Shown piece after piece: positions 2,951 through 29,888 of a stretch of DNA of 32,385 bases. This stretch comes from Thermomicrobiales bacterium. Lineage in GTDB: Bacteria > Chloroflexota > Chloroflexia > Thermomicrobiales > CFX8. The stretch covers positions 1-32,385 of the forward strand of contig JAMLIA010000032.1 of NCBI GenBank assembly GCA_023954495.1, read 5' to 3'. The notes beneath the pieces were generated by a model. The model was not told the origin of the DNA. It made no database searches and saw nothing but the letters and a program-made list of their open reading frames with translations. The translations under genes were made by a program, and so were the position numbers. Each line of letters begins with the position of its first letter. Position 1 is the first letter of the stretch.

Positions 2951-4057
2951 TCATGGCACCAGCCACGGGTGCCGCTCAACAAGCTTGGCGGCTTTGTCGG
3001 GCTCGACGGAGCGAATGAAGGCGAGGTAGCCGCGCGCGTATTCGCGGACGTCCTGGCCAAGGTACTGGCTGGCGCTGTCGAAGCCGTCGCGCTCGGTGTT
3101 ATGCAGGATCGCGCGGAAGCGGCGCAGGCTCTCGCGGGGGATGCGCACGCCGTCGTTGACGACGAGGCCGGTAACGATCTGGCGGTGGTGGGCGCGCATG
3201 ACGCGCGTCTTGCCGTCGTTGAGGGCGAAGCCTTCCTCGCGCACGATGACCTGCACGCTCGTCACCAGACGCCCGACATCCGCATCGTTCGAAGCGTGCG
3301 AGAAGGTCATGTCGTCGGCGTAGCGTGAGTAGACAAACCCGTGCTTCGCCGCCAGGCCGGAAAGTCGCGCATCGAGCCGCCGACTGATGAGGTTCGAGAT
3401 AGCCGGCGAGGTCGGCGCACCCTGCGGCAGGCAAGCGTACTGCAGGTCGTCGCGCGAGCGCGGCGCGGTCGTGGTGAGCAGAGCCAGCATTGTTGAGATG
3501 CCAGAGCTGTAGCCGAGCGCCGCGAACATCCCGCGCACCCGCCGCCAGCCGATCGTCGGGAAGAAGTCGGTCAGGTCGAGCTTGACGACGACGGCGCAGT
3601 TGGTATGCAGCATGGCGTGATCGACGACCGACGCACCGCTGTAGAACGCTGTCGCCGCCGGATGGATCGGGACCTTCGTCAGGATATTGCGCAGAATGGC
3701 GCGCTGCGCTATGCGCATGTCCATCTTCGGCGCGCTGATCGTGCGCGTCCCACCACTGCGCTTGGCCACCGTGAAGTGGATGTAGTGATCCTGCTTGCGC
3801 GTGCGCCCGTATTGCGGATAGCACAGCCAGACGAGGCGGCCCTCCGGGATGCCGAGCAGCTCAGCGACATCGGTAACGTTGCTGAGTGGTGGCAAGCCGA
3901 GGCTGGCGACGCGCTCGGGATCGCCATCGTTGAAGCGCATGGAGGACTGGACACCCAGGCCGAGGAAGATGTGACCCGGCCGCCGACGCGAGCGCGACGT
4001 GCCGTCCGAATCCGGAACCGCGCCAATCGAGCTCAGAATGCGTCGCAGCAGGTTCAT
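2951..4057 (-). CDS. Retron-type RNA-directed DNA polymerase (reverse transcriptase)
   Basis: A 368-residue RT with the full palm. IPEGRLVWLCYP and KRSGGTRTISAPK (about 70-111) form the fingers. VVKLDLTDFFPTI holds the first catalytic Asp (D161), LPQGAPTSPAISN is at 210-222 and SRYADDMTFS carries the YADD catalytic pair (246-249). QIVTGLVVN contains the VTG motif (295-297) that marks retron RTs. At the place where retron RTs carry NAxxH there is HAMLH (147-151), so Ala and His are kept and Asn is replaced. No maturase, HNH, primase or protease domain is attached, and the protein stops soon after the thumb. About 55 residues precede the conserved LPPLSNVTDVAELLGI segment. The Shine-Dalgarno before ATG 4057 is poor, so ATG 3938 (residue 40) is an alternative start. 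Just upstream lies the structured RNA candidate at 4084-4249. In retrons the RT copies part of that RNA into branched msDNA. No effector gene follows on the same strand. Confidence 0.88.
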   Translation of the reverse strand: MNLLRRILSSIGAVPDSDGTSRSRRRPGHIFLGLGVQSSMRFNDGDPERVASLGLPPLSNVTDVAELLGIPEGRLVWLCYPQYGRTRKQDHYIHFTVAKRSGGTRTISAPKMDMRIAQRAILRNILTKVPIHPAATAFYSGASVVDHAMLHTNCAVVVKLDLTDFFPTIGWRRVRGMFAALGYSSGISTMLALLTTTAPRSRDDLQYACLPQGAPTSPAISNLISRRLDARLSGLAAKHGFVYSRYADDMTFSHASNDADVGRLVTSVQVIVREEGFALNDGKTRVMRAHHRQIVTGLVVNDGVRIPRESLRRFRAILHNTERDGFDSASQYLGQDVREYARGYLAFIRSVEPDKAAKLVERHPWLVP

Positions 4058-6003: not shown

Positions 6004-6467
6004 CCCCTGAGTAGGAACGCCACAGCCCCCGGCGTGGTGCGGCAACACCATCGCCGAGGGCCGTTGATCCGCGATGCCTCTCCGACGAGCGAAGTTCGGC
6101 ACACACGGCGCACTCCAATTGTAGCCGGATCGAGTTCGTCCGAAGCGCAACCTCATAAGGAGCTCGATCATGACCGCGACGCACCCAGCGCCGGTCGGTA
6201 CCAACCATGCCATCGACAGTCGCTCAACGCCCGGGTTATGGCGCTCCTGCTGCATCGGCAGCGCCAGCGTAGCAAGCAGTACGGCACGGCAGCCACACAC
6301 GAATCCTGTCCTTTCGAGCGCGAGAGAGAAGTCTCCCCTGGGTCGGACTGTGTCGAACGGATCGGGGATCTCGCACTGCAGGGTGCCATTGCCCGGGTGC
6401 CCGGACATTTCACGCTGATCACAGCACGTACTGATTCTCCCCTATTTCGATGAAAGGCATCTTACCC
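6004..6467 (+). other. Intergenic region with a gene remnant and a degenerate repeat
   Basis: A good Shine-Dalgarno (AAGGAG, 6157-6162) precedes an ATG at 6170 that opens an 82-residue frame. From about residue 40 that frame runs into the repeat at 6287-6420, so the ORF looks like a fusion of a lost gene's start with repeat DNA. The frame's protein resembles nothing I recognise. No intact gene can be supported here. Confidence 0.4.
6287..6420. repeat. Degenerate palindromic copy of the dispersed repeat
   Basis: The left arm contains CGGCAGCCACAC, TCCTGTCCTTTCGAGCGCGAG and GAGAAGTCTCCCC. The centre has CTGTGTCGAAC, also found at the inner end of the copy at 11155-11251. The right arm runs back through GGGGATCTCGCACTGCAGGG to GGACATTTCA. 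Order and spacing match the better preserved copies near 10.5-11.4 kb and 29.7 kb, with more substitutions. Confidence 0.55.
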
Positions 6468-10548: not shown

Positions 10549-10633
10549 GATCGGCAGCCACCCCCGAAGCCTGTCATTTGCCGTCCTGGGGGCACCCGGC
10601 AGTGAGAAATCTCCCACCCATTCGCACCAGTCA
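10549..10633 (+). repeat. Dispersed repeat copy A (left of GIY-YIG gene)
   Basis: Starts GATCGGCAGCCACCCCCGAA, continues CCTGTCATTT, then the longer internal module GCCGTCCTGGGGGCACCC and GGCAGTGAGAAATCTCCCAC, and ends CCATTCGCACCAGTC. The opposite-facing partner is copy B at 11018-11086, beyond the GIY-YIG gene. Confidence 0.75.
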
Positions 10634-10686
10634 AACCCTGCCGGGTGCCTGGCCGATTCTGGCTGTAGCGTCTGGATACGCACCGC

Positions 10687-11001
10687 ATGTCACCGCGACG
10701 GCAGCACTCGTATTGGGTCTACATCCTGTCAAACGTCCTCGGTCGGTCAGGGACGCTCTACGTCGGCGTAACGAATAACCTCCAGCGTCGTGTCCGGGAG
10801 CACACGCAATTGCGACCCGACACGTTCACAGGTCGCTATGGAGTCACCCACCTCGTTCACTGCGAGGAGTTTCGGTATATCAGTGACGCGATCGGCCGCG
10901 AGAAGCAGATAAAGGGCTGGGGGTGATCGCGCAAGCTCGATCTGATCGAAGCGGAGAACCCTGGCTGGGTGGACTTGAGCGCGGGGTGGTTTGAGGAGTG
11001 A
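10687..11001 (+). pseudogene. GIY-YIG nuclease (UPF0213-like), interrupted by a stop codon
   Basis: The N-terminal 79 residues show the GIY-YIG core: YWVYILSN, then GTLYVGVTNNLQRRVREHT (catalytic-type Tyr and Arg) and REKQIKGW. A TGA at 10924-10926 ends this frame, yet the same frame continues with SRKLDLIEAENPGWVDLSAG up to a TGA at 10999-11001. This is the normal C-terminus of small single-domain GIY-YIG proteins (about 100 residues). Where relatives have basic residues after KGW, this gene has Gly-stop, so a CGA-to-TGA change is the simplest explanation. No clear ribosome site precedes ATG 10687. Facing repeat copies A and B bracket the gene, suggesting a mobile unit. The role of such proteins is poorly known; the fold cuts DNA. 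Confidence 0.8.
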
Positions 11002-11017
11002 TCATGTTCCGCGTGTG

Positions 11018-11086
11018 TCTGCTGCGAATGGGTGGGAGATTTCTCACTGCGGTTCGAAATGACAGGATACGGGGGTGGCTGTCGGC
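11018..11086 (-). repeat. Dispersed repeat copy B (right of GIY-YIG gene)
   Basis: Read on the minus strand: GCCGACAGCCACCCCCGTAT, CCTGTCATTT, the short internal module CGAACC, GCAGTGAGAAATCTCCCACC, then CATTCGCAGCAGAC. The outer and inner ends match copy A (ATTCGCA-CAG), so A and B form the termini of a 538-bp unit. Confidence 0.75.
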
Positions 11087-11154
11087 TCGGGATGCTCGCC
11101 ATTGATGGAAGTGATGAGTCGCTGGAACGGCAGCATCGCTCTTCCCCTTTTCAT

Positions 11155-11251
11155 TCTGAATGCGTTGTAAATGTTAAGTTGTCCGATCGGCAGCCAACAT
11201 TTTGTCCTGTCATTTCGAACCGCAGTGAGAAATCTCCCACCCGCTCGCACT
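11155..11251 (+). repeat. Dispersed repeat copy C with extended outer end
   Basis: The outer end is TCTGAATGCGTTGTAAATG, then TTAAGTTGTCCGATCGGCAG. The core follows (TCCTGTCATTTCGAACCGCA, then GTGAGAAATCTCCCACCC) and the inner end GCTCGCACTGTGTCGAAC. The outer 38 bases recur near 29.85 kb in reverse orientation, so the full terminus is longer than copies A, B and D show. Confidence 0.75.
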
Positions 11252-11267
11252 GTGTCGAACGTGGAGC

Positions 11268-11309
11268 GGATTCTTCACTCGCGGTTCCCTCTGGGCCACG
11301 CATGACAGC
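11268..11309 (-). repeat. Degenerate repeat fragment E
   Basis: GATTCTTCACTCGCGGTTCC followed after a short gap by CATGACAGCG resembles the GAGATTTCTCACTGCGGTTC...AAATGACAGG core in minus orientation. Many substitutions make this a weak copy, lying between copies C and D. Confidence 0.35.
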
Positions 11310-11340
11310 GAAAGAGGCTGGGGCGCTGCCACGGGCAGCT

Positions 11341-11424
11341 GTATCGGGCGGGTGGGAGATTTCTCACTGCCGGGTGCCCCCAGGGCGGCAAATGACAGGA
11401 CAAAAGGGTGGCTGCCGTGCCTGA
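11341..11424 (-). repeat. Dispersed repeat copy D
   Basis: Read on the minus strand: TCAGGCACGGCAGCCACCCT, TTTGTCCTGTCATTTG, the longer module CCGCCCTGGGGGCACCC, GGCAGTGAGAAATCTCCCAC and CCGCCCGATAC. It shares the long internal module with copy A, and the TTTTGTCC segment with copy C. It faces C across about 90 bases. The whole gap from 11002 to 11599 holds only repeats and no gene. Confidence 0.75.
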
Positions 11425-29587: not shown

Positions 29588-29702
29588 GCGTCGCCCTCAG
29601 CCCGGCGGCTGCGCCCGCCAACCATCTCTGCCTCCACGTCGCTGCCAAACTGCCAAGGGGCTCAATCTATCTGGACCGCAGCCGTCGGGCTGAGGGTGAC
29701 GC
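29588..29702. repeat. Long inverted repeat, second family
   Basis: A 26-base arm at 29588-29613, beginning GCGTCGCCCTCAGCCC, matches the reverse complement of 29677-29702 at 24 of 26 positions, with 63 bases between. It starts 22 bases after the SnoaL stop and ends one base before the next palindrome. It differs in sequence from the GIY-YIG-associated family. Confidence 0.65.
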
Positions 29703-29703
29703 C

Positions 29704-29888
29704 AATGTCAAGTTGTGCGATCGGCAGCCAGCCACTTCTTCTGCCATTTCGAGCTCTCACGCGAGAAATCTCCCCCGCGTTGAACTGAGTCAAACGGGTG
29801 GGAGATCTTTCGGTTGCGACCTCAAGATGACAGGGCAAGGGGTTTGCTGCCGATCAGGCAACTTGACATTGACAACGCATTCAGACTG
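29704..29888. repeat. Gene-less palindromic copy of the dispersed repeat
   Basis: The arms AATGTCAAGTTG-TGC-GATCGGCAG (29704-29727) and its counterpart at 29847-29870 match except for three central bases. Inside lie CCATTTCGAGCTC and GCGAGAAATCTCCC on the left, and GGGTGGGAGATC and AAGATGACAGGGCA on the right. Outside the right arm, 29871-29886 carries the reverse complement of TCTGAATGCGTTGT, the outer end of copy C. It has no room for a gene (about 167 bp between arm ends). The stretch up to the SDR at 30017 holds nothing else I can support. Confidence 0.7.

Follow-up and report, generated by a model that had tools for sequence, protein, structure and literature searches.

The window, that is, the whole stretch of 32,385 nucleotides that was analysed, corresponds to contig C32 in a Thermomicrobiales (Chloroflexota) assembly of 3.36 Mb, and it carries a GIY-YIG open reading frame between two facing repeats, A and B (Table 1). 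As described in the earlier note, the two repeats share their ends, and repeats of the same kind lie without the gene at three other places of the window. The outer arms are complementary at 89% over 28 nt and the inner parts at 92% over 38 nt. The hairpin core of repeat A contains a long sub-type insert, GCCGTCCTGGGGGCACCCGGC. An in-frame TGA at 10924-10926, inside the PF01541 match, truncates the window frame at codon 80. Because the frame continues beyond this codon to 11001 and the lost part carries N91, the window copy of the gene is a pseudogene.

Table 1. Positions of the nuclease gene, its framing repeats and the gene-less repeats in the window
Feature	Positions	Strand	Details
Degenerate single copy	6283-6335	+	outer arm and hairpin
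Repeat A	10549-10636	+	outer arm, hairpin core 10573-10613 and inner arm
GIY-YIG ORF	10687-10926	+	79 aa; Pfam PF01541, E 8e-13
Ancestral full frame	10687-11001	+	104 codons plus stop, by comparison with the intact C8 copy
Repeat B, facing A	11013-11084	-	hairpin core 11036-11063, GTCATTTCGAACCGCAGTGAGAAATCTC
Outer end of right arm	11085-11107	-	inverted match to left end of C8 unit
Gene-less facing pair adjoining the unit	11170-11421		cores 11209-11236 (+) and 11356-11396 (-); inner gap 119 nt
Canonical gene-less facing pair	29704-29870		cores 29743-29772 (+) and 29802-29831 (-); inner gap 29 nt

A second unit is present on contig C8 at about 58652-59151, and its gene, 97% identical in DNA to that of the window, is intact, with CGA replacing the TGA of the window copy and a product of 104 aa. 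The two units are alike from within the left hairpin through 11107, where the right-hand homology stops at CATTGATG, the C8 unit's own left end in inverted form; the 538-bp unit ending at 11086 that had been proposed earlier is therefore too short. The left hairpin and outer arm of the window unit are of another sub-type than those of the C8 unit, and the left end matches the repeat at 11350-11417 (90%). The left end of the window unit is thus chimeric, and the unit has been reshaped by recombination between repeats. A third GIY-YIG copy, on contig C20, is diverged (about 70% aa identity), and facing repeats frame all three such genes of this genome.

The PF01541 scores of 48.9-52 bits lie well above the curated cut-off of 22.6 and place the proteins in the GIY-YIG superfamily. 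Y12, R35, H39, E72, and N91 are invariant in the family alignment, and the C8 copy, which has the full catalytic set, is a candidate active gene that could act on the window copy. A C-terminal Asn is typical of most GIY-YIG groups, the Slx1 group being marked as lacking it (PMC1564403). Substitution rates (dN 0.017 and dS 0.072 between the C8 and C32 copies; dN 0.166 and dS 1.49 between the C8 and C20 copies) give dN/dS values of 0.11-0.24 among the copies of this genome, which indicates that the protein is under purifying selection. The closest solved structures are those of the UPF0213 GIY-YIG proteins PDB 1zg2 (E 2e-12) and 1ywl (E 8e-8), yet these are just distantly related.

We examined covariation in 23 distinct copies of the repeat from this genome. 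They fit an outer stem of the form AT-NNN/N'N'N'-AT (variants ATTTC/GAAAT, ATCTC/GAGAT, ATCTT/AAGAT, and ATTCC/GGAAT), an inner stem of 2-3 bp (AC/GT, GC/GC, GGT/ACC, GCG/CGC, and GGC/GCC), and a CGCA loop. In the hairpin covariation test, 98.7% of the cells were paired compared with 83% in shuffles, double changes numbered 32 compared with 11.5 in shuffles (0/500), and slid controls dropped to 6-53% paired. Folded singly, the short DNA hairpins of this genome showed no gain in energy over shuffles, so the case for a hairpin rests on covariation, which shows the predicted hairpin to be under selection. The GA..GA between the outer and inner stems is near-invariant; because the tandem G.A mismatches arise only on the GTCAT strand, this is probably the functional strand. 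The GTC itself is conserved, and the base before it is T in 60/60 copies of the genome (TGTC).

A search of the genome with the repeat, as the earlier note had suggested, found at least 142 copies by the specific pattern (64 on the plus and 78 on the minus strand), compared with none for a reversed-pattern control. All facing partners within 75 nt of each other were separated by 29-31 nt, 14/18 by exactly 29, and the outer arm was conserved to about 50 nt outside the GTC. At its start, CCACCCGTTCGACTCAGTCAAACGC, the spacer is similar to the inner arms of the units that carry the gene, and in these units the gene occupies the place of the 29-nt spacer. Given the fixed gap and the likeness of the spacer to the inner arms, the gene-less pairs look like one multiplied internal-deletion derivative and not the outcome of many independent losses.

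Scanning with the family alignment, we obtained 80 loci, which belong to Bacteroidota, Acidobacteriota, Planctomycetes, Alphaproteobacteria, Chloroflexota, Parcubacteria, and others. The flanks of the 65 loci with full flanks were searched by a structural rule (G/C-TCA-C/T, a stem of five or more pairs beginning at the A, then C). Facing hairpins were found on both sides at 37/65 loci and on one side at 19/65, whereas control DNA 1.2 kb away gave 0/57 and 4/57, respectively, and shuffled flanks gave 0 and 3. Together, the reversed, shuffled, and distant controls rule out a chance origin of the pattern, and the counts go against the condition named in the earlier note as refuting, namely that the repeats are mostly missing beside GIY-YIG genes of the family. 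Among the strong Chloroflexota matches, 10/17 were framed on both sides and 3 on one side; five weak or distant GIY-YIG matches in the class, perhaps of UPF0213 type, had flanking repeats in 0/5 cases. The stems are diverse (21 different first 5-mers), with the GTC and an AT or AC start kept. The left and right hairpins of one locus are closer to each other than hairpins of different loci (edit distance 0.15 versus 0.32), and hairpin distance tracks protein distance (Mantel r 0.46, p 0.0005), a correlation of which shared ancestry can explain part.

Framing repeats occur in Azospirillum lipoferum, Shinella, Rhizobium, Sinorhizobium, and Neisseria, and the loci of Alphaproteobacteria and Neisseria read CGTC; repeats of this kind were absent from 50 kb of S. 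meliloti pSymB. Within the class, the gene was detected in 30/100 genomes, and across these 100 genomes the gene-bearing ones were richer in repeats (Mann-Whitney p 2e-6; p 0.054 when permuted within families). Three genomes were rich in repeats with no gene detected (G025 with 200, G063 with 193, and G015 with 78); here the gene either was lost, lies in an assembly gap, or is otherwise supplied. Broken copies were found in the window, G003, G021, and TYG73, and some genomes have several copies.

Filled and empty sites were both found in several lineages, as the comparison of close strains proposed in the earlier note had called for. In Azospirillum lipoferum the unit lies between sufB and sufC, and it is missing in four relatives. 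At a Sphingobium site that lies between fnrL and a gene for a response regulator, the unit is present in several strains, whereas strain TYG64 has here only the palindrome GTCACCCCGGGTCAAGCCCGGGGTGAC, exactly the sequence that deletion at the 8-nt direct repeat ACCCCGGG of the two ends would leave. The palindrome of TYG74 is nearly identical, and TYG72 and TYG65 have neither unit nor palindrome. TYG46 and TYG73 differ by one extra gene-less pair between diverged flanks. In a genus of Thermomicrobiales, the unit of G021 stands against a 55-bp spacer at the same site in its genus-mate G025. Between pcaQ and pcaD of Rhizobium, the site is empty in R. johnstonii and holds one gene-less pair in N324, two in N621, and a fused palindrome in NLR16a. 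The perfect GTCA...TGAC palindromes of Rhizobium NLR16a (L223) and Sphingobium TYG64 (L078), which occupy sites that in relatives hold facing pairs or a complete unit, are fused remnants of end-to-end deletion. A length difference in Sinorhizobium medicae turned out to reflect not an insertion but the tandem duplication of some 190 bp: in strain WSM1115 (L219) the duplicated stretch holds the repeat, and some other strains match about 190 bp shorter.

With respect to the features expected of a transposon, inverted ends are present and empty sites exist, but the intergenic flanks have diverged too far for exact joints or a duplication to be read, so that neither a target duplication nor a base-exact insertion end was readable in the filled and empty pairs from Azospirillum, Sphingobium, the Thermomicrobiales genus, and Rhizobium. 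The earlier reading of the locus as a mobile unit, an autonomous element accompanied by derivatives, thus gains from the recurrence of the unit (3/3 in the genome and 37/65 among relatives), from the deletion-like gene-less pairs, and from the occurrence of both site states, but not from base-exact boundaries; because no target duplication is readable, mobility driven by the nuclease is something that we infer.

The repeats resemble a published class. In 2013, Di Nocera, De Gregorio, and Rocco reported CGTC REPs from five phyla, for the most part arranged as opposed dimers. They identified the Neisseria CGTC-1 repeat with dRS3 and concluded that these REPs "apparently lack a dedicated transposase" (PMC3733652). 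The present repeats share with that class a short stem-loop, one end of which bears an unpaired tag, a high copy number, the prevalence of opposed dimers, and a spotty distribution, and the framing repeats of Azospirillum lipoferum, Sinorhizobium, and Neisseria fall in taxa of the survey (PMC3733652). The survey (PMC3733652), however, has no dedicated enzyme and no Chloroflexi, whereas here a GIY-YIG gene lies within the dimer. Further, the tag in this genome is TGTC and not the strict CGTC, so that the repeats are best described as a variant of the class. With RAYT/REPIN systems the units share facing hairpin pairs with a short spacer, many gene-less copies, and one or a few repeat-flanked nuclease genes (PMC3116915, PMC8266576). 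The pair as the multiplied unit is also common to both, as seen here in the 29-nt gap and in the presence and absence of gene-less pairs in Rhizobium, but here the enzyme is a GIY-YIG protein and not an HUH tyrosine transposase, the tag is GTC and not GTAG, and the gene lies within the pair. I-TevI-type GIY-YIG homing endonucleases have the catalytic domain and its conserved residues in common with the family (PMC1564403), which differs from them in being about 100 aa long, in lacking an extra DNA-binding domain, and in being tied to multi-copy hairpin repeats.

A homologue from N. gonorrhoeae, presumably Ssn, has dRS3-type repeats, GTCATTCCCGCG...GGGAATC, on both sides and shares 45.7% aa identity with the query, of which the match covers 90%. 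Ssn of Neisseria is reportedly a GIY-YIG nuclease of single-stranded DNA that is specific for its repeat. It is likewise a small GIY-YIG protein that stands alone and whose cognate repeat is present in many copies, and the present system differs in the gene-in-pair unit and in the 29-nt gene-less derivatives. Owing to this specificity of Ssn for its repeat, the link between nuclease and repeat may be partly published; among the papers searched, none links GIY-YIG enzymes to REPs. The earlier note, which knew of no such system in the literature, is therefore right only in part, because the repeats represent a variant of the 2013 CGTC REPs (PMC3733652) and Ssn has reportedly been found to be a repeat-specific nuclease.

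Overall, we lean toward the view that the GIY-YIG gene and its facing repeats form a transposon-like unit whose nuclease cuts a hairpin of single-stranded DNA and from which gene-less pairs spread in trans, a probable mobile unit and GIY-YIG counterpart of RAYT/REPIN systems. The framing of the gene, the selected hairpin, the purifying selection on the protein, the near-identical second unit, the deletion derivatives, and the filled and empty sites are the observations on which this view draws, and hairpin cutting, together with spread caused by cutting, is the part that we infer. The unit ends would be CGTC-REP-type hairpins (5'-GTC, a stem AT-NNN...N'N'N'-AT, then C); the nuclease would recognise the hairpin in single-stranded DNA, such as the lagging-strand template, and cut at its GTC/ATC foot. 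The gene-less pairs with the 29-nt spacer would be internally deleted, non-autonomous forms that spread in trans as REPINs do by RAYT transposases. GIY-YIG enzymes hydrolyse DNA, and none is known to join DNA ends, so insertion would rely on host replication or repair. Against the model speak the repeat-rich genomes with no detected gene, the within-family p of 0.054, and a hairpin/protein correlation of only 0.09 among protein pairs below 55% identity; the chimeric left end of the window unit also fits recombination better than clean transposition.

This last point keeps alive a homing-like process, which we nevertheless consider unlikely, in which the nuclease cuts existing gene-less pairs and the gene is copied in by repair, the repeats being homology arms or landing sites and not transposon ends. 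Consistent with such a process, the gene sits exactly where gene-less pairs hold the 29-nt spacer, the left hairpin of the window unit, unlike in sub-type to that of C8, places a crossover or conversion end within the hairpin, and homing endonucleases are numerous among GIY-YIG enzymes (PMC1564403). However, gene-less repeats also multiply without the gene, to at least 142 copies, for which its homing offers no explanation, and a filled allele, which also holds the recognised repeat, would be cut as well, unlike in true homing.

Alternatively, the nuclease could serve the host by cutting incoming or exposed single-stranded DNA at the repeat, thereby tuning uptake and recombination, with gene and repeats co-inherited and not mobile. 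This would agree with the repeat-flanked homologue of N. gonorrhoeae, with the ComEC-type gene found in this genome, and with Ssn, which reportedly modulates natural transformation via its repeat. It is nonetheless improbable in our judgment, because the patchy occurrence in the class, the frequent broken copies, the several copies per genome, and the insertion between the operon genes sufB and sufC look like an element under turnover. That another enzyme, a RAYT or Y1 transposase, moves the repeats and that the GIY-YIG gene is a passenger caught between two copies is very improbable: REPs of the GTAG type go together with RAYTs (PMC3733652, PMC8266576), but a Y1_Tnp search of this genome gave nothing above the cut-off, the one sub-threshold Y1 fragment, with 22.3 bits against a cut-off of 23 and located where contig C36 ends, has no such repeat in the surrounding 1.7 kb, none of the tyrosine transposases found in many CGTC species was flanked by CGTC repeats (PMC3733652), and recurrence at the same place in many phyla would not be expected of a passenger.

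Returning to the transposon-like unit, we regard the GIY-YIG enzyme as the leading candidate for the partner that a very common bacterial repeat family is missing. The wider proposal is that across bacteria the CGTC-REP superfamily is mobilised by this dedicated enzyme, a hydrolytic nuclease that recognises hairpins of single-stranded DNA, as an independent counterpart of RAYT/REPIN; it is put forward tentatively and may well not hold. The presence of a nuclease gene inside facing copies in many phyla, together with hairpins whose variation follows that of the protein, makes the question of the CGTC-REP enzyme directly testable. If the proposal is true, a second enzyme class would be added to the REPIN-like selfish repeats, and a hydrolytic nuclease, not a transposase, would drive the spread of a very widespread repeat class.

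Some observations at individual loci are recorded separately. Beside the canonical gene-less pair of the window, positions 29588-29702 hold a separate inverted repeat with 26-nt arms, 92% complementary and 63 nt apart. At G045:C1:3180963-3183743, an intact GIY-YIG copy is followed by a cluster of broken pieces of that gene, all in a span of 2.8 kb; it looks as though several units inserted or recombined at one spot. Finally, plasmid p1 of Planktothrix agardhii (L068) carries at 3004-3288 a GIY-YIG gene of the family with several flanking hairpin repeats, which has a type IIL restriction-modification gene on one side and, on the other, drmA from a DISARM defence operon.
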